Below are positions 2,428 through 16,237 of a stretch of 16,494 nucleotides of DNA, in pieces. The stretch lies in contig JAISRU010000167.1 of NCBI GenBank assembly GCA_031273515.1, positions 1-16,494 on the forward strand, in the 5' to 3' direction. The notes below the pieces were generated by a model. That model was not told the origin of the DNA. It saw only the letters and a list, made by a program, of their open reading frames with translations, and ran no database searches. The position numbers and the translations under genes were made by a program. This DNA comes from Bacteroidales bacterium. GTDB lineage: Bacteria; Bacteroidota; Bacteroidia; Bacteroidales; WCHB1-69. Within the stretch, counting starts at the first letter, position 1, and the number at the start of each line of letters is the position of its first letter.

Positions 2428-3438
2428 ATGCAGAACAGTGAAATAATCATTTATCAATCCGACGGAAACATCAAAATAGACGTTCGATTAGAAGAAGAAA
2501 CCGTTTGGCTGACACAGTCGCAAATGGCACAATTGTTTGGAAAGGATAAACGAACGATTTCCGAACATATCGGTAATATTTTCAAAGAAGGCGAATTAAA
2601 CGAAGAAGTGGTTGTCCGGAAATTCCGGATAACCACTCAACACGGCGCTATTGAAGGAAAAACACAGGAAGTAGAAGTTAATGGTTATAATCTTGACGTT
2701 ATCATTTCCGTCGGTTATCGCGTAAAATCGCAACAAGGCACGCAGTTCCGTATCTGGGCGACCCAACGACTGAAAGAATACATTATCAAAGGATTTACTC
2801 TAAACGATGACCGTTTTAAATCGGGCAATTCGATGAACTATTTCAACGAATTACAGGAACGTATTCGCGAAATACGTCTGTCGGAACGGTTTTTCTACCA
2901 GAAGATCAAAGATATTTATACCACAAGCATTGATTATAATCCGCAGGATAAAAAAACGATTCTCTTTTTCAAAATCGTGCAAAACAAATTGTTGTGGGCA
3001 ATCAGTCAACAAACCGCCGCCGAACTGATTTACCGTCGATCGGATGCAAGTCTGCCTTTAATGGGAATGTCGTCTTATGATAAGAAAAATACGGTCGCCG
3101 TTAAAAAATCGGACGCAGGCATTGCGAAAAATTATCTGACCGAAGATGAAATGAGATTGCTCGGATTGTTAGTGGAACAATATCTGGCTTTTGCCGAAAC
3201 TATGGCGCAGCAACATGTACCCATGTATATGAAAGACTGGATAGAACGATTGGATATTATCCTGCAGCTCAACGGAAGGGAACTGTTGCACCATGCAGGA
3301 AAAATCAGTCACGAACTTGCTTTGGAAAAGGTAAATATTGAATTTGACAAGTATCATCAAACACAACGCTCCATCGAAAAAGAAAACAGTCTGAAAGAAA
3401 TAGAGGAAGATATTAAACGTTTAAACAAACAAGAATAG
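2428..3438 (+). CDS. RhuM-family (virulence RhuM) protein
   Basis: A 336-residue cytoplasmic protein of the RhuM family, at its usual length of about 330-345 residues. Family signatures are a short beta N-terminus (EIIIYQSDGNIKIDVRLEEET), then a helix-turn-helix-like segment at about 25-52 (VWLTQSQMAQLF, KRTISEHI), then the conserved stretch DVIISVGYRVKSQQGTQFRIWATQRLKEYIIKGF split over about residues 89-123. The rest is helical and ends in a charged tail. RhuM was named from a Salmonella pathogenicity island. The biochemical role is unsettled; the N-terminus suggests DNA binding, and homologues often sit in mobile or defence-type regions. Here it is a single gene flanked by repeats, with a promoter at 2254 and a leader of about 160 nt. 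The ATG at 2428 is the first in frame. Family assignment is firm; function is not known. Confidence 0.88.
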   Translation: MQNSEIIIYQSDGNIKIDVRLEEETVWLTQSQMAQLFGKDKRTISEHIGNIFKEGELNEEVVVRKFRITTQHGAIEGKTQEVEVNGYNLDVIISVGYRVKSQQGTQFRIWATQRLKEYIIKGFTLNDDRFKSGNSMNYFNELQERIREIRLSERFFYQKIKDIYTTSIDYNPQDKKTILFFKIVQNKLLWAISQQTAAELIYRRSDASLPLMGMSSYDKKNTVAVKKSDAGIAKNYLTEDEMRLLGLLVEQYLAFAETMAQQHVPMYMKDWIERLDIILQLNGRELLHHAGKISHELALEKVNIEFDKYHQTQRSIEKENSLKEIEEDIKRLNKQE

Positions 3439-4209: not shown

Positions 4210-4288
4210 TTATCAATTATCCATTGTCAATTATCCATTGTCAATTTATTAAGTCCGCAGGCAATTTTCAATTCTCAATTCTCAATTT
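4210..4288 (+). repeat. Heptamer arrays and GTCCGCAGG tag (copy C2) entering the tatC 3' end
   Basis: TCAATTATCCATTGTCAATT-type repeats at about 4210-4246, then the GTCCGCAGG tag at 4253-4261, then TCAATTC units to about 4286. The last part overlaps the end of tatC, whose stop is at 4268-4270. Confidence 0.8.
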
Positions 4289-5089
4289 CTTCTTTGTCCT
4301 TTTGACAATAAGGATACTCAGTTCGTAGAGGGCGTAAATGGGGATGAAGACCAACAACAGCGTGAAGACGTCCGCAGTGGGCGTGATGACCGCCGACAAA
4401 ATCAGAATGACGACAATGGCATGTTTGCGGTATTTTCTCATAAAGACGTCCGTGAGCAGTCCTAATTTGGCGAAAAGCCATGAGATAATCGGCAATTCCG
4501 ACATAATCCCCAACATCAACGACAACATCAGAAAAGTGTCAATATAAGACGAAAGATTGATCGTGTTTTGTATCTCCGGACTCACCTGATAGGTTGCCAA
4601 AAATCGAAAGGAAAGCGGAAAGACAAGCACATAATTCAACAAAACTCCCACCCCAAAAAGCAATGACGAATAGACCATCACCCATATCGTATATTTGCGT
4701 TCATGTTCGTACAAAGCAGGAGATATAAATCGAAAAATAGAAAAAACAATATAGGGAAAAGCAATCAAAATGCCTGAATAAAAAGCTGTCTTCATGTGGA
4801 TAAGAAACTGCGACGCCAACTGCGTGTTGATTAAAACCGTCTGAAAATCTTCGGGACATAGCGCAGGAAATGACACCGCATCAGCAACCCAACATAAAAA
4901 ACGATATAACATAAAATCGGACTTCTGCGGAGCAAGTACTATCCCGAAAAGCAAATCCTTATTCAGAAATGCTACCGCCATGAAGACAATCACCACTATG
5001 ATTATTCGAAAGAGAATTTTACGCAAATCGTCTAAATGATCCCAAAAAGTAATTTCCTCTTTCGATCCCCTGTTTATTTTTCTTTCCAC
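4268..5089 (-). CDS. tatC: Sec-independent protein translocase subunit TatC
   Basis: A 273-residue inner-membrane protein with six predicted membrane spans, of normal TatC length. TatC binds the twin-arginine signal and, with TatA, moves folded proteins across the membrane. Hallmarks are the cytoplasmic N-terminus FWDHLDDLR, the first periplasmic loop and second span ending FRFISPALYEHERK (compare E. coli APALYKHERR), SELPIISWLFAKLG, and ITPTADVFTLLLVFIPIYALYEL near the C-terminus. It is the last gene of the cluster. Its ATG overlaps the end of tatA by 16 nt, which suggests translational coupling. The last residues, L-R-I-E-N, and the TGA are read from the heptamer array, so the tail is repeat-derived. 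The array-encoded tail follows the last span and is unlikely to affect the core. Confidence 0.96.
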   Translation of the reverse strand: MERKINRGSKEEITFWDHLDDLRKILFRIIIVVIVFMAVAFLNKDLLFGIVLAPQKSDFMLYRFLCWVADAVSFPALCPEDFQTVLINTQLASQFLIHMKTAFYSGILIAFPYIVFSIFRFISPALYEHERKYTIWVMVYSSLLFGVGVLLNYVLVFPLSFRFLATYQVSPEIQNTINLSSYIDTFLMLSLMLGIMSELPIISWLFAKLGLLTDVFMRKYRKHAIVVILILSAVITPTADVFTLLLVFIPIYALYELSILIVKRTKKKLRIEN

Positions 5090-5298
5090 TCCGAATTAGA
5101 ATTCTTTTTTTGCTCTTTGTCTTCTTTGTCTTCTTTGTCGTCGATCATTCCGTTCATGCCTTCTTTGAAACTTTTTACTCCTTTTCCCAATCCGCGCATC
5201 ATTTCAGGAATTTTTCGTCCGCCGAAAAACAACAACACTACCAACGCTATCAATAAAATCTCCTGAGCGCCTAATCCTAAAAATAATAATATTCCCAT
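5074..5298 (-). CDS. tatA: Twin-arginine translocase TatA/TatE family subunit
   Basis: A 74-residue protein with one N-terminal membrane span (about residues 8-24, ILLIALVVLLFFG), the diagnostic FGGRKIPEMMRGLGKG hinge and amphipathic helix, then a charged tail. TatA forms the pore of the Tat translocase at the inner membrane. No separate TatB is present in the window, so this looks like a minimal TatA-TatC system with a bifunctional TatA, as known in many bacteria. The tail contains DKEDKEDKE, encoded by a 9-bp tandem repeat (5114-5140) that could vary in copy number without shifting the frame. The gene lies 18 nt after the polyferredoxin gene and overlaps tatC. Confidence 0.95.
   Translation of the reverse strand: MGILLFLGLGAQEILLIALVVLLFFGGRKIPEMMRGLGKGVKSFKEGMNGMIDDKEDKEDKEQKKNSNSEWKEK
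5114..5140 (-). repeat. Three-copy 9-bp in-frame tandem repeat in tatA
   Basis: Plus-strand units TCTTTGTCT, TCTTTGTCT, TCTTTGTCG encode the repeated D-K-E tail of TatA. The period is a multiple of three, so copy changes keep the frame. Confidence 0.75.
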
Positions 5299-5316: not shown

Positions 5317-6852
5317 TTAAAATCCAAAATCCGTTACTTCTGTTTCTTCTTTTTGCTCGTGCGTGAAAGCCTTCGCCCGCTCCTGTACACGATTGCCTTC
5401 CACATGGATGGCGCGATGCGGACGAGCAGGACAAATAAATTCGCATCCTCCGCATCCCACGCATATATCCTGATCGATAAAAGGGATTGTCAGTCCGTCT
5501 TTGTAGGGCAACATTTTTACTGCCTGCGTCGGACAATGTTCGGAACATGCGCCGCAATTAGTCCCTTCTTTATAGACAACGCACAAACTCTCAATAAAAA
5601 TCACTTTTCCTACCTGCGTCAAATGTTTTTCTTCCTTTGTCAATGGTTTCAACGCCTTCGATGGACAAACCGAAGAACAAACCGTACAGTCGAAATTGCA
5701 GAACCCTTTCTCGAAATACATCAACGGCTGCATCATGCCCCCGACGCCATATTCCATGAAGGCAGGCTTCAACACTTTGGACGGACATTTGCTGATACAC
5801 AAATGACAGGACGTGCAATGACGCAACAAATGTTCCGTACTGATTGCACCCGGCGGACTAATGGCTGTCTGACGAACCAAAGATTTTTCTCTCAACTCTC
5901 CCGACGCCAATTTCGTCTTTTCCTGTGCCAAAAGAGAGGGCAAAGTCAAAATACCGGTTAATCCGGTGAGCAGAAACTGTCTTTTGTGTGTATTGACTGT
6001 GGCTTCCGTTCTTTCTGGCGACTGTTCTTTTCGACGAAAGTCAAAGGATATAGCCTGTTGATGACAATGATCCAAACAGTTGAAACAATCGACGCAACGA
6101 CTGTAATCAATCCTCGCCTCCTGAGCGTTGATGCAGGAAGATTTGCATTTAGCGGCGCATAATCCGCAATGATTGCATTTAGAGGCGTCTATCCGCACTT
6201 TAAAAAACGAAAACTTGGCGATAAATCCAAGAACAGTTCCCACAGGACAGATTGTATTACAGTAAAGTCGTCCGTATTTCCATGCCAGAAAAGCAATCAA
6301 CAAAAAAGTAAGCAGTCCGATTACAAAAGCGGAAACACTTAACATGAGTATCTCTGTGCGATAAAATGTATAATTGCCGAAACTGTTGAAAATATAAGCC
6401 AGCAAATTGTTTCCCAACAAATAAATCGGCTTAAAAAGATGTACCGTTATTCTTCCGTATGCGCTGTAAGGATCAATTATATCGACCAACAGGCTGAAGC
6501 CCAAAAAGAACAAAACAACAACGCTCGTAACAACAAGCCATCGCAACAGATGATTTATTTTTCGGTATCCGTATTTCTTTTTTTTCTGAAAAGTATGCCT
6601 CGCAATATGGCTGATTATATCCTGAAAAATACCCAGCGGACAAACAGATGAACAATAAATTCGTCCCGCTAACAAGGTTATCCCCGTCAGCGCAAGCATC
6701 ACGCCGATATTCAGCGCCAGCAATGCCGGAATAAACTGTATCAGCGTCAGATTATAGAGTTTATCGGGTAATATTCCTGCGAAATCGAGAAAATAACAAG
6801 TCAGCAGAACGAAAATTACAAGAGATGTGCCTGTGCGTATTTTTTTCAGCAT
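5317..6852 (-). CDS. NapH-NapG-like fused membrane polyferredoxin
   Basis: A 511-residue protein from ATG 6852 (a GTG at 6858 adds two residues). Residues 1-220 resemble NapH: four or so membrane spans (about 8-25, 40-62, 105-125, 168-191) and two CxxxCP motifs, GRIYCSSVCPLG (64-74) and GRLYCNTICPVG (195-205). Two cytoplasmic-type [4Fe-4S] motifs follow: C226/229/232/236 and C253/256/259/263. Residues 289-310 read HKRQFL plus a hydrophobic stretch ending LPSLLAQ, like a Tat signal. The rest carries four more cysteine sets (346-356, 385-396, 424-440, 464-474) spaced as in NapG. NapGH passes electrons from menaquinol to periplasmic acceptors; a similar role is inferred here. It starts 9 nt after the DUF362 stop and precedes tatA. 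No nitrate reductase is seen nearby, so the electron acceptor is unknown. Confidence 0.85.
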   Translation of the reverse strand: MLKKIRTGTSLVIFVLLTCYFLDFAGILPDKLYNLTLIQFIPALLALNIGVMLALTGITLLAGRIYCSSVCPLGIFQDIISHIARHTFQKKKKYGYRKINHLLRWLVVTSVVVLFFLGFSLLVDIIDPYSAYGRITVHLFKPIYLLGNNLLAYIFNSFGNYTFYRTEILMLSVSAFVIGLLTFLLIAFLAWKYGRLYCNTICPVGTVLGFIAKFSFFKVRIDASKCNHCGLCAAKCKSSCINAQEARIDYSRCVDCFNCLDHCHQQAISFDFRRKEQSPERTEATVNTHKRQFLLTGLTGILTLPSLLAQEKTKLASGELREKSLVRQTAISPPGAISTEHLLRHCTSCHLCISKCPSKVLKPAFMEYGVGGMMQPLMYFEKGFCNFDCTVCSSVCPSKALKPLTKEEKHLTQVGKVIFIESLCVVYKEGTNCGACSEHCPTQAVKMLPYKDGLTIPFIDQDICVGCGGCEFICPARPHRAIHVEGNRVQERAKAFTHEQKEETEVTDFGF

Positions 6853-6861
6853 AATCACGTC

Positions 6862-7800
6862 TTACATTTTTATTCTTTTGATAGTCAAACGATCGATGTC
6901 CATAGTTCCGAGTTTCAGATTTTGTCCGTTTGCCAGATGTTTTACATTCTCCAAAGGCATATCCCGCAACTGATTGAAAAATTTTGCCGCTGCCGTATCC
7001 ACCGCAACAATGTCCTGAGAAAGAAAAAGTCCTTTGGGATTGACCACATCTGCCGCCGATTTTCCGCGAGGACCATTGGTTTTAAGTACTCTGTATGCAT
7101 CTACCACATTCAATATCGGTTTTTTGCTCAGCGTACACATATCCGCAATACACTGCTGCAGATCACGAATGTGAAATATCCTTCTGTCCCAGACAATTCC
7201 CATCAGGTTTTTCATGGAAATGGTCAGATTTGCGCCTCCGTGATGCTTTAACACAGGAACATTAATCCATACATCGCTGTCCAGAATGGCTTTGTGTACT
7301 TTTATTTCCTTCAACTTTTTTCCTTGCGGCAAAGAAACGCTGCGGTAATACGACTCCTCATTTCCCGGTATCACTTTGGCTCCCGCCTCTTTTGCGGCAG
7401 CTTCTATACCGCTGTTTTTGTAACATTTTATCCAGTCGTCGCAGGTATGGTCGAAAACCACAACCTCTTTTGCGCCCGCACTTATACAATGACGCACAAC
7501 TTCCGCAACCAATTTCGGATTGGTATTGCCCGAAAGTTCAGGCGTTTTATCCCATCCGATATTAGGCTTTACTACAACTTTAAATCCGCTTTTCACAAAT
7601 CTGCCCATTCCGCCTGCTTCGGCAATCGCTCTGCGGAACATTGCATCGGGTTCTCCCCCCATAACAGCAATCAGGTCGGCAGGCGTTCCTGTTTGTGCAT
7701 CTTTCATTGTCTGGGCAAGAATGTCCATTCCCCCGTTCATCTTGAGCGTAAATGCAGCGCCCGTTACAGCCAATGTCTTTAAAAAATCCCGTCTGTCCAT
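6862..7800 (-). CDS. Tat-exported DUF362 domain protein
   Basis: A 312-residue protein starting MDRRDFLKTLAVTGAAF, a canonical twin-arginine signal (R3-R4, F6-L7-K8) followed by a hydrophobic region to about residue 20 and a possible processing site near ILAQ (27-30). The mature part is a DUF362 domain: DLIAVMGGEPDAMFRRAI, FKVVVKPNIGWDKTPE, CISAGAKEVVVFDHT, VWINVPVLKHHGGANLTISMKN and LMGIVWDRR are characteristic. The function of DUF362 is not established. Some relatives carry ferredoxin motifs, but this one does not, although it sits immediately before a polyferredoxin gene. That neighbour suggests it receives or handles electrons or a redox cofactor at the outer face of the membrane; this is inference. 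It is probably a substrate of the TatAC pair at the end of the same cluster. Confidence 0.9.
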   Translation of the reverse strand: MDRRDFLKTLAVTGAAFTLKMNGGMDILAQTMKDAQTGTPADLIAVMGGEPDAMFRRAIAEAGGMGRFVKSGFKVVVKPNIGWDKTPELSGNTNPKLVAEVVRHCISAGAKEVVVFDHTCDDWIKCYKNSGIEAAAKEAGAKVIPGNEESYYRSVSLPQGKKLKEIKVHKAILDSDVWINVPVLKHHGGANLTISMKNLMGIVWDRRIFHIRDLQQCIADMCTLSKKPILNVVDAYRVLKTNGPRGKSAADVVNPKGLFLSQDIVAVDTAAAKFFNQLRDMPLENVKHLANGQNLKLGTMDIDRLTIKRIKM

Positions 7801-7833: not shown

Positions 7834-8232
7834 TTATATTATCCAAAAAAATCTAAAACAATCTTCATCATACAAAGCATAATCCGCCTTTCCGTTGACG
7901 GCAAAAGTCTTTATCTGTTTGGCTCCCTGCAACAAATCGACGGCAAAACGAAGCGTCGCTCCTGTTTTTACACGGTCGTCTACCAAGAGAATGGTTTTGT
8001 CTTTGCAGTCGAACCCAACAGAAGATAACAATTGCGGAGTATCATATTTCGGATTTTGATATTCGTCCCGCAGACCAATTCGCAACAATTGTATCTCGAT
8101 ATTCAACTTCTGATTGAGTATGCCCGCAGGAACAAGTCCTCCGTTGGCAATGGCGACAATCATATCGAAGTCTTCGGCAAAAACAACATTGCGAAAACGA
8201 TCCATCATTTCTTCAAACGTCTTACCGAGCAT
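7834..8232 (-). CDS. Type I phosphoribosyltransferase family protein
   Basis: A 132-residue cytoplasmic protein. Residues 25-43 (IVAIANGGLVPAGILNQKL) form the GG loop region, and 81-94 (ILLVDDRVKTGATL) are the PRPP-binding signature with the two acidic residues and T-G-x-T. Such enzymes transfer ribose phosphate from PRPP to a base or related amine. It is short for a complete hypoxanthine or xanthine enzyme (usually 150-190 residues) and lacks an obvious hood domain, so the substrate cannot be told. It starts 3 nt after the S-component gene and ends 33 nt before the DUF362 gene. Tight linkage to a transporter suggests it traps the imported compound as a nucleotide, but this is inference. Some members of the family are regulatory only. 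Confidence 0.8.
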   Translation of the reverse strand: MLGKTFEEMMDRFRNVVFAEDFDMIVAIANGGLVPAGILNQKLNIEIQLLRIGLRDEYQNPKYDTPQLLSSVGFDCKDKTILLVDDRVKTGATLRFAVDLLQGAKQIKTFAVNGKADYALYDEDCFRFFWII

Positions 8233-8235
8233 AGT

Positions 8236-8757
8236 CTACAGTTTAGCAATTGCTTTCAGGAGAAAATATCCTCCGAATATCTGCATCAACATGCCTGCCC
8301 ATCCTTTGGTGAAGTCTTTAACAGCCGTCAGAAAACTTCCTTCAATCAGCCATTCTACAGCAGTTCCGACAAGTTGATATGCCAACACAACGACAATAAT
8401 TCCCCAGAGAGAAATCTTCCCCAGACGATGCGCCATATATGCTCCCGCCACTGCCAGCAAAACGGATTTTACAAGAATGATCGGCAAACTGCCCACAGGA
8501 GGCATTCCAAACAACAGACTGTTTATCAAAGGCGAACAGACTGCGGTAAGCAATCCAACGCCTATGCCGTATTTGTAGGCGGCAATCAGTGTAAAAAAAT
8601 AGATTGGCAGGAATATCAGACCGCCTTGCGGTATAAGGTGACTTATCTGCGGCAAAATAATATTGCCTCCAATAAACAACAAGGCAAACAAATAGGTTTT
8701 TAATTCACTGAATGATAAAGAATAAAGGTTTACAATTTTTCCTACGGTTTTTTCCAT
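8236..8757 (-). CDS. ECF-type transporter S component, substrate unknown
   Basis: A 173-residue hydrophobic protein with about five or six membrane spans: about 22-40, 42-62, 64-85, 88-110, 117-140 and a C-terminal one. The size, GxxxGLLTAVCSPLINSLLFG-type glycine/proline helix breaks and a PIILVKSVLLAVAGAYMAHR segment fit the substrate-binding S subunits of energy-coupling factor transporters. These work with a shared EcfT/EcfA/EcfA' module, none of which is encoded in this window, so it would be a group II S component. The substrate is probably a vitamin or base. It is the first gene of the minus-strand cluster and is followed 3 nt later by a phosphoribosyltransferase. No riboswitch is recognisable in the upstream 8758-8900 stretch, and no exact -7 box was found. 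Confidence 0.7.
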   Translation of the reverse strand: MEKTVGKIVNLYSLSFSELKTYLFALLFIGGNIILPQISHLIPQGGLIFLPIYFFTLIAAYKYGIGVGLLTAVCSPLINSLLFGMPPVGSLPIILVKSVLLAVAGAYMAHRLGKISLWGIIVVVLAYQLVGTAVEWLIEGSFLTAVKDFTKGWAGMLMQIFGGYFLLKAIAKL

Positions 8758-9049
8758 TTCTAATAATTTTTATAAAGGTGATGAGATAAAATCAAGTATT
8801 TTCTTTCGACTGTACTAACGCAAGTCGTATTGTTTAAATTGCGTCATATAATTGAAAATTGAAAATTAAAAATTGAAAATGACAATTCGACACAAATAAT
8901 CCTCCCGTCATGATTGTCTGAACCGCTGATTCTAATGATTAACTATGATTATTTTCACCTGTCATTGCGCAGGATTAACACCGTAGGTGTTGTTTTTTTT
9001 GGATTGATTCTTCGCTGACGCTCCTTACAATGATGGATAGCTTATTTAC
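8758..9049. other. Intergenic gap with repeats between divergent genes
   Basis: No gene is seen between the minus-strand cluster and the AAA gene. It holds a heptamer array read as ATTGAAA units (about 8851-8879) and the hairpin with T-tract at 8977-9000. An inverted copy of the segment seen at 111-131 lies near 9009-9032 (TTCGCTGACGCTCCTTACAATG). A promoter for the minus-strand cluster must lie here; I found no exact TAnnTTTG box for it. Confidence 0.6.
8977..9000 (+). terminator. Terminator-like hairpin of the GTA-loop family
   Basis: AACACC (8977-8982), loop GTA, GGTGTT (8986-8991), then G and eight T. Structurally it is an intrinsic terminator on the plus strand, but no plus-strand gene lies upstream of it. 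Its CCGTAGG centre is the same as in the dispersed hairpin family (3946, 3998), so it may be a repeat that happens to look like a terminator. Confidence 0.45.
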
Positions 9050-9135: not shown

Positions 9136-10704
9136 ATGCGATATTTTAACGTATCAGGACCTTGTAACAAGGCAAAACATTATATGATAGAGGCGTCTAC
9201 CCGTTTGCAGGGGGTAAAACAATTGATAGACATGGAGCAGTATTTTGTTATTCATGCGGCACGCCAAAGCGGTAAAACGACTTATCTGAAAGATTTAACC
9301 GAACGACTTAATGCCGAAGGAAAATATTATGCCTTGTATTGTTCGTTAGAAAGTGTGCAATACTATATTGAACCGAACGAAGGTATTCCTGCAATTTTAG
9401 ACCGTATCGTTCTTGCTTTGCAAAAATCGTCAATCCCTTTCACCTATAACGAACGTTATGAACAGGATAAAAAAAACAGACCTTCCGTACTGTTGATACT
9501 GTTTCTGATGGATCTGGTCGAAACCTTAGACAAACCATTGGTGATTTTATTTGATGAAGCAGATTGTTTGAGTGAAGGGACTTTGATTTCGTTTTTATGT
9601 CAATTGAGGGACGGATATAGCAGTCGCAGTAGCAGTAGCACTCCCTTTGTTCATTCCATTGCTTTGGTTGGCATGCGCAATATCCGTGACTATAAAGCGC
9701 AGATACGTTCCGACAGTCAGAGTTTAAGAAGCGCAAGTCCGTTTAATATTGTAAAGGCGTCATTATCTTTGCGTAATTTCACACAAGGAGAAATAGCCGG
9801 ATTATATGCTCAACATACCAACGATACCGGACAAATATTTGAAGAGAAGGCTGTTGAATTGGTATGGGAACAGACGCAGGGACAACCATGGTTGGTAAAC
9901 GCCATTGCCTGCGAAATAATTGAACAAATATTACAGTCGGACTATACTCAATCGATTACTGCCGACATTGTGGAACAAGCCATACAAACGATTATCTTAC
10001 GTCGGGACACGCACATAGACAGTCTGCTCGAACGTTTGAAAGAAGACCGTGTGCGGAAAATAATTCAACCGCTAATCATCGGTGAAAAAGGAGATGTAGA
10101 CAAACTGTCAGATGACTATTCCTTTGTTCGTGACATGGGTTTGATACGCGACATTCCTGGTGGTTTTCTTCCTGCCAATCCGATTTATTCAGAAGTGATT
10201 GTTCGTACCTTGAGTTTTAATGTACAGGACGACCTGCTTGATAAAAAATATCCCTACCAAATACTTCGCTACCTCAAAAACGGACGCATAGACATGGATT
10301 TCCTGATGTGCGATTTCCAGCAGTTCTGGCGTGAAAACAGCGAGATATGGATCAAAAAGTTTGATTATGGAGAAGCAGCTCCTCATTTGATACTGATGGC
10401 ATTTTTGCAACGAGTCATCAACGGTGGCGGACAGATTATTTGCGAAATGGCTGCAGGTACGGGTCGTCTTGACCTCTGCCTGATTTACGAGAACCATAAA
10501 TACCCCATAGAACTTAAAATACGTTATGGAACAAAATACGTAGAACAGGGTATCGAACAAACCGCCCGTTATATGGATACACTCGGTTGCAAAGAAGGAT
10601 GGCTCGCTGTCTTCGATCGTCGTAAAACAGTGAAATGGGACGATAAACTGTTTATGAAAAAAGAAACTGTCAACGGAAAAACAATTACCGTCGTGGGACT
10701 TTAA
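9136..10704 (+). CDS. AAA-type ATPase with C-terminal PD-(D/E)XK nuclease-like domain
   Basis: A 522-residue cytoplasmic protein. The N-terminal part is a P-loop ATPase: Walker A at 41-49 (AARQSGKTT) and Walker B at 136-143 (VILFDEAD), with a helical lid region to about 320. The C-terminal part ends in a PD-(D/E)XK-like core: D446 in GRLDL, then E459 and K461 in YPIELKI, and a helix with Q and Y residues (VEQGIEQTARYMDTLG). All three catalytic-type residues are present, so it may cut DNA; that is not shown. Proteins of this layout are abundant and multicopy in some Bacteroidales, often beside repeats, and are usually labelled ATP-binding or AAA-like proteins; their role is unknown. The ATG at 9136 is chosen because the overlapping ATG at 9129 hits a stop after six codons. 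The gene is monocistronic with its own promoter at 9093. Confidence 0.85.
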   Translation: MRYFNVSGPCNKAKHYMIEASTRLQGVKQLIDMEQYFVIHAARQSGKTTYLKDLTERLNAEGKYYALYCSLESVQYYIEPNEGIPAILDRIVLALQKSSIPFTYNERYEQDKKNRPSVLLILFLMDLVETLDKPLVILFDEADCLSEGTLISFLCQLRDGYSSRSSSSTPFVHSIALVGMRNIRDYKAQIRSDSQSLRSASPFNIVKASLSLRNFTQGEIAGLYAQHTNDTGQIFEEKAVELVWEQTQGQPWLVNAIACEIIEQILQSDYTQSITADIVEQAIQTIILRRDTHIDSLLERLKEDRVRKIIQPLIIGEKGDVDKLSDDYSFVRDMGLIRDIPGGFLPANPIYSEVIVRTLSFNVQDDLLDKKYPYQILRYLKNGRIDMDFLMCDFQQFWRENSEIWIKKFDYGEAAPHLILMAFLQRVINGGGQIICEMAAGTGRLDLCLIYENHKYPIELKIRYGTKYVEQGIEQTARYMDTLGCKEGWLAVFDRRKTVKWDDKLFMKKETVNGKTITVVGL

Positions 10705-10963: not shown

Positions 10964-11049
10964 GCATACCTGACGGCATGCAGTGTTGGTTCTTTCTCGT
11001 TTGTTTCTACCGAGCGATGCATCCCTAACGGGATGCGTTGTTCTGCGGA
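10964..11049 (+). repeat. Twin-hairpin dispersed element, copy 2
   Basis: Hairpin GCATACC-TGAC-GGCATGC (10964-10981) and hairpin GCATCCC-TAAC-GGGATGC (11019-11036), with spacer and end sequence shared with 4063-4147. A two-unit 10-bp array, CTGCGGAACA and CTGCGGGAAA, overlaps the end at 11043-11062. Confidence 0.8.
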
Positions 11050-11100
11050 ACACTGCGGGAAATAATAATCACCCGAATAGCAATCATATTTAATCAGGTA

Positions 11101-11172
11101 AATCGACGCACGAAGCGAGAGCAAAGGCAGCTTGCGGACTATGCCGAGCAAGATGGAGAGAAGCAAAGCCAA
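11101..11172 (+). repeat. 79-bp dispersed repeat, degenerate copy B3
   Basis: It begins AATCGACGCACGAAGCGAGAGC like B1 and B2 but carries substitutions and small deletions (GCTTGCGGACT in place of ACTTGTTTGACT). It ends AGCAAAGCCAAT and runs directly into a heptamer array. Confidence 0.8.
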
Positions 11173-11250
11173 TTGTCAATTTTCAATTGTCAATTGTCAA
11201 TTATTTGTGTCCGCAGGCAATTTTCAATTTTCAATTTTCAATTTTCAATT
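11170..11250 (+). repeat. Double heptamer array around a GTCCGCAGG tag, copy C5
   Basis: GTCAATT/TTCAATT units from 11170 to about 11202, the tag at 11209-11217, then TTTTCAA units to 11250. Nine bases later is CATCTTAT, a degraded version of the TATCTTTG box found at the same distance at 2254. The 11317 gene follows. Confidence 0.75.
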
Positions 11251-11316
11251 AAAATGCAACATCTTATTTTATTTTCCGTTATAAGTCGGAAATGAAGTCT
11301 TTTTAATTCAGAGATA

Positions 11317-14300: not shown

Positions 14301-14790
14301 ATACACCATCAAGAATGCCTTCACCCTGAAAAGCGAATACCAAAACGGATGGATTACCAAAAGTTCGGAATATCTTCAAAATCGCAATTATCAGCTATAT
14401 TACAACAGCATAGAGGGCGGCATCGATTATCAGCAGACGAAACTCAGACTGACCCTGCTTGCTAAATATGCACAGAAGATCAACAAACAGGGCGATGAAC
14501 AATCGTATGCATATAATGTCGGATTTGAATTTTCGTACAACATGCCCAAACGCGGGACGGTCTTACTGAAAACGACCTATTATTACATTTTGTTCGAGGG
14601 AATAAGTTCTTCATCGGCGGCGTATGAGATGCTTGAAGCGTTGAGTCCGGGCAGCAACGGGATCGTGAATTTCATCTACCAGACCCGCTTATGGGACAAT
14701 CTCCAGTTGAACCTCGTCTACGAAGGACGCATATCCGAAAGCGTCAAAATGCGTCATACGGGCAGCATCGAACTAAGAGCTTATTTTTAG
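11317..14790 (+). CDS. Large outer-membrane beta-barrel-type protein, unknown function
   Basis: A 1,157-residue protein. Residues 1-23 are a signal peptide (KTK, then LLFVFLCILFFGF, ending near ANGQ). Around 139-148 (GSISRGISIG), then NSNLNLQLSGKL and ITDQNIPVQPEGNT (about 178-190) is a conserved region I associate with a Bacteroidota family of about 1,100 residues, distantly reminiscent of SprA/Sov but less than half their length. The rest alternates polar and hydrophobic residues with many aromatics, as in transmembrane beta strands, and it ends RAYF, a barrel-type C-terminal aromatic. It is probably in the outer membrane, role unknown. The only usable start is TTG at 11317: an in-frame stop lies at 11293 and the first in-frame ATG is about 70 codons in, beyond the signal peptide. 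No conserved neighbour is present. Confidence 0.8.
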   Translation: MKTKLLFVFLCILFFGFDDANGQSVSNRHTRELILDADTIVLDTLSLVRGSLALQGIDSNDYTTDYINGRIMLLNPSVKGKTVQVTYRTYPFRLNRTWENKPLSLIEKRLYDPVNPFSIPEPSSPMDDLFSDAGLTTYGSISRGISIGNAQDMVVNSNLNLQLSGKLDENIEILASITDQNIPVQPEGNTAQLKEFDKIFILLKYKNSATVQAGDIETQSANTYFMRFGKQGQGLQGNVVFPHADKRQDTTLYKVGLSGSMAKGIFRRQDIVAIESVQGPYQLRGVNGESYIMVLAGSERVYLNSVLLKRGEDADYTINYNSGEITFTSRRMITKDKRIQVEFEYSDRTYARSVLHLNTEVSRRKSAFRFNFYNEQDMKNQPNQLNLTEAQKLYLSSAGNDVRNAYVPHIDSVGWHANEILYKLTDTVVNGVRYDTIFVHSVHPDSAVYRLGFTRTEQGQGDYVLTQNAVNGRVYSWVAPVNGISQGDYAPVILLVAPKRTQMYSLGVDYLPWKNTFFSVEGALSNNDPNTFSSIGNRDNVGFGLKATARHTLLFSNKKHTADTGWRMTSEGYYEVKNERFRYIEDYREVSFARDYNLNDTMRLDREHFFGLDIRINKDVHAQFGVNAAFLLIPTHNYWANNNHLTAFVYKKGYKLQFDTKLLTNRQSEYKTFFVQNKELISKTFRFIETGVSNEMEVNLYRHLTNDSIAAQSFAFNEVSVFIRNSDTLASSFRYGLSYSNRLEAVVRTGILSTDAMAHTLAAHFGLLKYTAHQLEFNASYRYLTYNDSTGENTLLAGLNYQSRFLKGAVQLSTYYEVGSGLEQKNEYAYLRTTDGQGTYQWIDYNNNDVEELNEFEVAVYKDQANYIRIWLPSNSYIKTYNNQWTQSITLRPAAVWRNVSGVRKFIARFDNLATFRTQQKNTLATLAGMLNPFAFATDDTALVASSDMFRNSLSFNRTSRIFGLEAIYHHARNKTLNISGFERSNVSSWIISGRYTIKNAFTLKSEYQNGWITKSSEYLQNRNYQLYYNSIEGGIDYQQTKLRLTLLAKYAQKINKQGDEQSYAYNVGFEFSYNMPKRGTVLLKTTYYYILFEGISSSSAAYEMLEALSPGSNGIVNFIYQTRLWDNLQLNLVYEGRISESVKMRHTGSIELRAYF

Positions 14791-14815
14791 TACAGTAGAC
14801 GAGTGAACAAGCGTA

Positions 14816-15016
14816 AATAAATTGAAAATTGAGAATGAGCCTTCGGACGTAAATAATTGACAATTGACAATTGGCTTCGCTTCTCTCCATCTTGCTCGGC
14901 ATAGCCAAACAAGTATTTCTCTGTGTAACTTTGTGTAATTCTGCGTTGTTCTGCGTAAATTTGCGGGAAATAATTTCTCGTCGCTTTGCGCAATTTTCAA
15001 TTCTCAATTCTCAATT
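14816..15016. repeat. Repeat mosaic in a convergent gap
   Basis: ATTGAAA/ATTGAGA heptamers (14821-14835) and TTGACAA units (14857-14872). An inverted partial 79-bp repeat follows (14871-14913: GGCTTCGCTTCTCTCCATC ... GCATAGCCAAACAAG). Then a five-unit 10-bp array at 14921-14970 (CTGTGTAACT, TTGTGTAATT, CTGCGTTGTT, CTGCGTAAAT, TTGCGGGAAA), and heptamers up to the permease stop (14993-15016). No gene or clear terminator is seen. Confidence 0.75.
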
Positions 15017-15019
15017 AAT

Positions 15020-16237
15020 TTACTCTTTCACATCGAGGACGTCTCTAAGGATATTGCCTGTGAGCATAAAACAAAGTACCAATAGCATAATAGATACTCC
15101 CGGAATAATGGCAAGATAGGCATAATCAAGAATAATATATCCATAATTTTCTTTTATCATTGTTCCCCATGACGGCATAGGCGGCTGGACTCCTATCCCC
15201 AGAAAACTCAGACTTGCTTCGGTCAGAATGGCAGAAGCAAAATTTGCGGCGCAGACAACTATGATAGTCCCTGTTATATTCGGAATAATATGTTTGAAGA
15301 TAATTGTCAGACTTCCAAATCCTAATGCTTTGGATGCTTCAACAAATTCTTTTTCACGCAGACTGATAATTTGTCCTCGAACCACGCGCGCAATATCCAC
15401 CCACATGGTAAGTCCGATTGCGACAAAGAGTTGCCAGAAGCCCGTCCCCAGAACAAAACTGATGGCAATGACCAACAATAACGTCGGAACTGACCATACA
15501 ACATTGATAAACCACATAATGACGTCATCGATTATCCCGCGAAAATAACCGGCGACAGCTCCCAGAAACATCCCAATAATCAACGCAATGAAAACAGAAA
15601 CAAATCCTACCGACAAACTGACTCTTGCTCCAATAATAAGCTGACTCAATACATCCCGTCCGTAACGGTCTGTGCCGAGATAATAGGTTTTCGTTCTGAT
15701 TTGTTGCCTGACTTCCGTTTGCAGTTTCTCCACAGAATACGTTTTCAATGCAGCGTTTTTGTCGAAAAACGAACACGTTTGTCCGTCAAATGAAACAGGA
15801 CTGTTCACCTCATGCGGATACACAACATCAACAAGATTGTACGATACTATATTATAAGGAGGAGCTTCATGCAATAAACAGACAATGACGGTATCGGCGA
15901 CAAAACGATAATCCGAAACAGGTATCGACACAAAATAAGCGGGCTGTCCATAGAACATCTTTTGGATGATATTACGCTTCTCTGCCGACTGTTTGTTTGT
16001 CAGCTGCAAAAAAGTTACTTTCGACATTGGTTTTTGCAACCGAATTTCCAATATCTGTTCATTTGCACAGGGCGTGCTGTCGGGCGTTATCAAATATCCC
16101 AACACAGCAACAACTGTTATTAATCCCAGCAAACAAAGTAAAAACATACCCTGCCTGTTTTTGCGAAACTTTCCCCATGCAATCGCTTGTAACGATTGCG
16201 CCTTGTATTCCTTTTTTCCTTGAAAAAATAAACTCAT
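15020..16237 (-). CDS. ABC transporter permease, DppC/OppC family
   Basis: A 405-residue inner-membrane subunit of a peptide- or nickel-type ABC importer. The N-terminal part has the OppC_N pattern KAQSLQAIAWGKFRKNRQG followed by membrane span 1 (about 30-50, ending LGYLITPD). A large periplasmic segment of about 140 residues follows, then YYLGTDRYGRDVLSQL, the family signature, and five more spans. The EAA coupling loop is EFVEASKALGFGSLTIIFKHIIPN, split at about 305-328, and the end carries LSFLGIGVQPPMPSWG. Partner DppB, ATPases and binding protein are not in the window. The frame is open to GTG 16291 and has ATGs at 16270 and 16237. I chose 16237 because the alignable family region begins just after it and a strong hairpin covers the two upstream starts. 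ATG 16270 is the main alternative. Confidence 0.88.
   Translation of the reverse strand: MSLFFQGKKEYKAQSLQAIAWGKFRKNRQGMFLLCLLGLITVVAVLGYLITPDSTPCANEQILEIRLQKPMSKVTFLQLTNKQSAEKRNIIQKMFYGQPAYFVSIPVSDYRFVADTVIVCLLHEAPPYNIVSYNLVDVVYPHEVNSPVSFDGQTCSFFDKNAALKTYSVEKLQTEVRQQIRTKTYYLGTDRYGRDVLSQLIIGARVSLSVGFVSVFIALIIGMFLGAVAGYFRGIIDDVIMWFINVVWSVPTLLLVIAISFVLGTGFWQLFVAIGLTMWVDIARVVRGQIISLREKEFVEASKALGFGSLTIIFKHIIPNITGTIIVVCAANFASAILTEASLSFLGIGVQPPMPSWGTMIKENYGYIILDYAYLAIIPGVSIMLLVLCFMLTGNILRDVLDVKE

Follow-up and report, generated by a model that had tools for sequence, protein, structure and literature searches.

The window analyzed here, that is, the whole 16,494-nt stretch of DNA, encodes a polyferredoxin (PFD) that very probably belongs to a Bacteroidota branch of polytopic NapH-NapG fusion PFDs with a dual Sec-Tat route. 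In the mechanism that we propose, Sec would insert spans 1-4, as can be inferred from Tooke et al. 2017 (PMC5449189), and the short, weakly hydrophobic fifth segment would escape Sec and be read by TatC via [KR]RxFL, the folded four-cluster NapG-like half then being carried to the periplasm. Signal peptidase I would probably cut after A309 to yield a quinol-side NapH-like subunit and a separate NapG-like periplasmic ferredoxin that would stay together, and electrons would pass to or from the neighbouring Tat-signal DUF362 protein. Tat dependence of the window PFD is predicted with high confidence; the direction of electron flow and the role of DUF362 are proposed with low confidence. The general design is already known, and what seems novel is the lysine variant of the signal together with its likely cut site.

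Locus and fusion architecture

The PFD gene lies at the position given in the preliminary description and, as also claimed there, directly before tatA and tatC (Table 1). The strand, which that description did not state, is minus; the plus-strand reading of the same interval is interrupted by stops. The most likely start is the ATG at 6852, as MLKK/MLRK or similar opens most aligned homologues; a GTG lies at 6858, and numbering in the profile searches, counted from that GTG, equals ATG numbering plus 2. Only 9 bases separate the DUF362 gene from the PFD gene and 18 bases the latter from tatA, while tatA and tatC overlap, and these short distances make it likely that the four genes form an operon. 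Across the order, tatA was found directly 3' of the PFD gene in 2 of 138 loci among the matches listed, some of which end at contig ends, and tatC directly before it in 2 further loci of the same set; both adjacencies were counted by single-sequence search, by which a divergent TatA could be missed. Elsewhere, the window carries a RhuM family gene (2428-3438), an AAA ATPase gene with a PD-(D/E)XK match under its cut-off (9136-10704) and A/T-rich stretches with mutually similar letters or translations (FSIFNFQFSI-like) at 4268-4328, 8850-8890, 11038-11295 and 14744-15119, perhaps a dispersed repeat.

Table 1. Features of the PFD locus in the window, with residues in ATG numbering
Feature	Coordinates	Strand	Remarks
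ECF-like gene	8236-8757	minus	match under its cut-off
phosphoribosyltransferase gene	7834-8232	minus	
DUF362 protein	6862..7800	minus	N-terminal Tat signal (MDRRDFLK); upstream partner of PFD
NapH-NapG fusion polyferredoxin (PFD)	5317..6852	minus	511 aa; ATG start at 6852
NapH-like half	6043..6852	minus	residues 1 to about 270; two CxxxCP, two ferredoxin sites and probably four membrane spans
internal Tat-type signal	5923..5994	minus	residues 287-310; K290-R291-x-F-L, short hydrophobic region, P305, A309/Q310
twin pair K290-R291	5980..5985	minus	
proposed signal peptidase I site A309/Q310	5923..5928	minus	inferred
NapG-like half	5320..5925	minus	starts at Q310; four [4Fe-4S] sites; periplasmic location proposed
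tatA	5074..5298	minus	74 aa; Pfam TatA_B_E 53 bits, E 1.8e-14
tatC	4268..5089	minus	sole TatC match over family cut-off in genome bin (71.5% complete)

The joining of a NapH-like to a NapG-like half, already proposed on first reading, is borne out by the matches of both profiles within one ORF, unlike NapGH, where two polypeptides come from two genes. In GTG numbering, TIGR02163 (NapH) scores 82 bits at 155-273 against a curated cut-off of 213, and PRK09476 (NapG) 64 bits at 286-489 against one of 269; in ATG numbering, NapH-type profile matches end at about residue 277 and NapG-type ones begin at about 284, all of them below cut-off. With both scores so far under their curated cut-offs, the PFD is strictly neither NapH nor NapG. 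The two CxxxCP motifs fall at C67/C71 and C198/C202, and the cysteine columns that build these motifs, the two ferredoxin sites on the N-terminal side of the junction and the four on its C-terminal side do not vary in any of the 30 aligned proteins (window included), in agreement with the cluster count first given for the two halves. An AlphaFold model built with 87 sequences (mean pLDDT 72, pTM 0.58) has long helices in the NapH half, where 18 of the first 23 ten-residue blocks exceed 80, and a low-confidence junction (pLDDT 40-57 at residues 281-320), which favours neither cleavage nor its absence. Foldseek returned no match of this model to the PDB at E ≤ 0.001, and a PDB sequence search with the PFD matched other polyferredoxin or ferredoxin chains only. 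A single-sequence scan of genome contigs retrieved 2 relatives. One contig of the window genome (C285) carries, at L089:273-3227, a second PFD paralogue with RR at its junction; next to it comes the gene for an aldo/keto reductase that has a Tat signal and 4Fe-4S motifs.

Conservation of the junction and its link to Tat

The HKRQFLL stretch recognized earlier at the junction occupies residues 289-295, with the twin-motif position and second arginine as in the known PFD and lysine as the first residue of the pair. Among the best 120 of 7998 scored homologues, window protein included, the aligned pair is KR in 109, RR in 10 and QR in 1, the R291 column being arginine in all 120. By the names attached to its closest homologues, the window genome is assigned to the phylum Bacteroidota and to a Bacteroidales setting. 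We also surveyed 295 genomes of the order, 135 of which have a PFD (E ≤ 1e-60). Merging same-gene rows and omitting 9 partial ones reduced 150 rows among the matches listed to 140 loci; L070 and L173 lack a full ORF, leaving 138 proteins from 128 genomes among the matches listed, both copies of the window genome included. By aligned column, the rule behind all figures for the order, the pair in these listed proteins is RR in 97, KR in 38, RK in 2, LR in 1 and KK in none; a nearest-pair rule, the only one applied outside the order, gives RR 102, KR 29, KK 2, RK 3, LR 1 and one RR unplaced. The preliminary description had held that homologues without [KR]RxFL would speak against its reading; [KR]R turned out to be kept in 119 of the best 120 homologues and in 135 of the 138 proteins among the matches listed, the latter having the second arginine in 136 cases and R or K at position 290 in 137. 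F293 is conserved in 100% of the best 120 of 7998 homologues and in 76% of the proteins of the order (among the matches listed). The top residue of linker columns 276-289 reaches at most 57% in the order, versus 99% for R291 (among the matches listed); near-invariance of R291 and position 290 next to such variable columns means that conservation of the pair is not due to chance.

Outside the order, the 32 junctions collected from a second phylum, to which a Syntrophales record belongs (148 genomes), namely those of the 30 best-ranked loci and 2 from a separate search, are all RR, and the best-listed 120 homologues of one PFD of this phylum comprise 118 RR and 2 KR, whereas 20 PFDs from other members of the phylum of the window split into 12 KR and 8 RR. 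Lysine at the first position is thus mainly a habit of the phylum of the window. FastTree places 8 of the 32 second-phylum PFDs on the side of the window. The nearest tree neighbour of the window PFD, at 67% identity, is L175/L003 (bin titled Candidatus Fibrimonas termitidis), a closeness that reflects either horizontal transfer or bin contamination.

On a simplified hydrophobicity scale, the fifth segment of the window PFD scores 2.67 and spans 1-4 from -2.43 to 0.12, that is, the fifth is far less hydrophobic; medians for the 138 proteins among the matches listed are 3.13 and -0.85 to -1.82, respectively. Residues 310-330, which follow this segment, include 5 K/R and 3 D/E.

PFD co-occurs with TatC. 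The latter (E ≤ 1e-8) was detected in 244 of the 295 genomes of the order, specifically in 130 of 135 with a PFD versus 114 of 160 without it (Fisher p 2.8e-9, kinship ignored). The search found no TatC in 5 PFD genomes, four of them less than 90% complete and the remaining one (G098) 93%. In the 71.5%-complete bin of the window, PF10518 gave three matches above its cut-off to N-terminal Tat signals, i.e., those of DUF362, of an aldo/keto reductase-ferredoxin beside the second PFD (C285) and of an FMN-reductase-family protein (C113); two of the three signals thus adjoin a PFD module in this incomplete bin. Pfam assigns the C113 protein (L246) to the NADPH-dependent FMN reductase family.

Of ten partial-match loci inspected (L234-L243), two hold the PFD as two genes. 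Here, the NapH half stops at the start of the linker and the NapG half opens with a separate ATG shortly ahead of the twin arginine, the second ORFs beginning with MMKNENRREFF and MDKSRREAIKK and having several Fer4 matches each; the two genes overlap by ATGA in one case and by 8 bases in the other, and DUF362 lies upstream in both. In these split relatives, the junction segment stands as an apparent N-terminal Tat-like signal. They form a fully supported pair inside the fused DUF362-linked clade (FastTree fork supports 82 and 91), a placement that suggests secondary fission. Of the other partial matches, L235, L236 and L241 are fused but divergent or unusual in the linker, L238, L240 and L242 stop at a contig end, and L237 and L243 look truncated or broken; L235 and L236 are PFD variants with a longer linker from the NapH half to the twin-arginine motif. 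Together, motif conservation, TatC co-occurrence and two natural splits with an N-terminal twin arginine support the earlier reading of the junction as an internal Tat-like signal.

The genes next to PFD fit this picture. DUF362 is encoded directly upstream of the PFD in 86 of 138 loci of the order among the matches listed, and its signal pair, as read from the sequence rows (L041 ends at a contig end), is RR in 84 of these 86, RK in one (L147) and never KR, versus KR in 36 of the PFDs of the same listed loci. In the sister clade, an aldo/keto reductase-Fer4 homologue, identified by Pfam on the copy of the window genome, follows 44 of 52 PFDs (44 of 138 overall, among the matches listed); a script scored 36 of these 44 partners as RR and 39 as having a lipobox-like cysteine. 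Two changes between the DUF362 and aldo/keto reductase contexts are needed on the FastTree tree. A PDB sequence search with the DUF362 protein returned no solved relative. What the two contexts share, we infer, is that PFD acts as a Sec-Tat conduit for electrons on behalf of a partner exported by Tat.

Tethering to the membrane would concentrate the signal locally at TatC, so that the weaker KR would suffice in PFD, while the untethered DUF362 keeps RR. The natural alternation of KR and RR offers a set of variants in which to examine if a tethered protein can make do with a weaker Tat signal.

Fate of the internal signal

The putative signal ends in residues resembling a signal peptidase I site. 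In the window PFD, L307 (-3), A309 (-1) and Q310 (+1) fit the preference for small or aliphatic residues at -3/-1 and the Q rule. Among the best 120 of 7998 homologues, -1 is A/S/G in 117, -3 is V/A/L/T/I in all 120 and +1 is Q in 103; P305 (-5), A at -1 and Q at +1 reach 99, 93 and 86%, respectively, versus 32% at positions 306, 308 and 311 (-4, -2 and +2). An [AGS]Q pair 14-32 residues past the twin pair occurs in 95 of the 138 proteins of the order among the matches listed, compared with 38 ± 4.8 when these stretches were shuffled 2000 times (maximum 55). As this ending matches the Q rule of Bacteroidetes, the internal signal may be cleaved so that a single gene gives NapH and NapG as distinct proteins, an outcome to which we assign roughly even chances, held at that level because the tested MLMS-1 relative remained uncut in E. 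coli (PMC5449189). The fuller reading, i.e., a one-gene polyprotein whose first half is taken by Sec and whose folded second half is taken by Tat, with a cut at A/Q and cyclisation of the new N-terminal glutamine, falls slightly short of even. The alanine-glutamine pattern may also reflect a helix-end preference. A Peptidase_S26 search of the 71.5%-complete bin returned no match, and conservation of the hydrophobic region, compared between sets of homologues as a test of anchor against signal, gave too weak a contrast to carry weight (percentiles 28 vs 36 in the two sets of 120, and 14 vs 32 in the wider sets).

The same dual Sec-Tat route could instead leave the fifth segment anchored permanently, the situation in the tested MLMS-1 PFD, with A-Q being incidental, and we regard this as a serious contender, if somewhat less than an even one. 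The fusion described in PMC5449189 was found near full mass and in membranes only, TMD5 is treated there as a span, and a signal peptidase site was engineered to free AmiA. [AGS]Q is present in only 46 of 86 DUF362-linked PFDs, versus 49 of the 52 others, and in 19 of 84 Tat signals of DUF362 itself (all among the matches listed); the Q-rule reading therefore does not fit all cases. Against incidental A-Q stands the alternation of strongly and weakly conserved positions around the proposed site, which is a cleavage-site pattern, and [AGS]Q is rarer outside the phylum (8 of 32 junctions of the second phylum and 6 of its 120 best-listed homologues).

Two further readings dispense with Tat, at present or in the making, and both strike us as improbable. 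The junction could be a Sec-dependent span or a cytoplasmic linker, with both cluster sets in the cytoplasm and [KR]R acting as positive-inside charge, and a lysine rather than an arginine at the first position would suit this; we give it very little credence. A charge rule would allow KK or RK, yet by aligned column the order has RK in 2 of 138 and no KK (among the matches listed), and the near-invariant second arginine with F at +3 amid a variable linker, TatC co-occurrence, the N-terminal twin arginine that opens split relatives and the Tat signals of partner proteins all argue against it. Slightly less credible still is that lysine marks a signal losing its use of Tat. KR does prevail in 109 of the best 120 of 7998 homologues, at least 17 K/R changes are needed among the rows of the order on a single FastTree tree whose forks are often weak (67 of its 194 inner branches), and lysine for arginine slowed SufI transport (PMC1182353). 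However, KR was tolerated in SufI and TorA mutants and in the native TtrB signal according to the same report, R291 and F293 are kept, and tatA-tatC lie within the operon.

Comparison with known systems

Polytopic NapH-NapG fusion PFDs were defined by Tooke et al. 2017 (PMC5449189), whose list of relatives includes members of Chloroflexi, Nitrospirae and Euryarchaeota and who describe NapG as a Tat substrate in its own right. Export of MLMS-1 PFD fusions depended on Tat and the twin arginines, unlike membrane insertion, and the fusion was uncut in E. coli, a cut site being engineered for the AmiA fusion only. The sole mention of Bacteroidetes in the main text of that article concerns the YkuE family. 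Searches of a collection of open-access papers listed nothing on PFDs of Bacteroidota or on cleavage of an internal Tat signal, and a term search of the accessible text of PMC10653852 gave no mention of Tat.

Compared by description only, PFD Q1NSB0 of the delta proteobacterium MLMS-1 shares with the window PFD the NapH-NapG fusion, an internal motif of the twin-arginine type that directly precedes a fifth segment of low hydrophobicity, four clusters past this segment and positive charges after it. Q1NSB0 differs in having RR, no cut in E. coli and seven stated clusters (PMC5449189), whereas the window PFD has K-R as its pair, ferredoxin-type sites numbering two plus four, Q at +1 of what is likely a signal peptidase I site, and an operon with DUF362 and tatA-tatC. 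No MLMS-1 name appears in the best 120 of 3687 homologues; profile A1 matches Desulfobacterota-type relatives of the same build. The preliminary description had drawn its parallel with the actinobacterial Rieske protein Sco2149, and likeness of the internal Tat signal after Sec-inserted spans stands, but the domains are unrelated and the spans three (as cited in PMC5449189), and the closer precedent, PFD, was missed. So were the likely signal peptidase I site and the prospect that the exported half may not stay attached. The NapG and NapH proteins of periplasmic nitrate reductase, each matching one half by profile, are encoded by separate genes.

Glutamine follows the cut in a mean of 71% of predicted Bacteroidetes signal peptidase I substrates (PMC5837995), close to the 69% of PFD junctions (95 of 138, among the matches listed), although those substrates have predicted N-terminal signals and that of PFD is internal (residues 287-310). 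Pyroglutamate at inner-membrane proteins is stated as untested in PMC5837995, and PFD, if cut, would offer a Tat case of such Q-rule processing. Cleavage would also imply that a dual Sec-Tat protein does not have to remain a multi-span product and that a single gene can supply matched membrane and periplasmic subunits. The Bradyrhizobium fbcH cytochrome b/c1 polyprotein is likewise encoded by one gene and cleaved at an internal signal into two electron-transfer subunits, as proposed for PFD, but its signal is of the Sec type and the proteins are unrelated.
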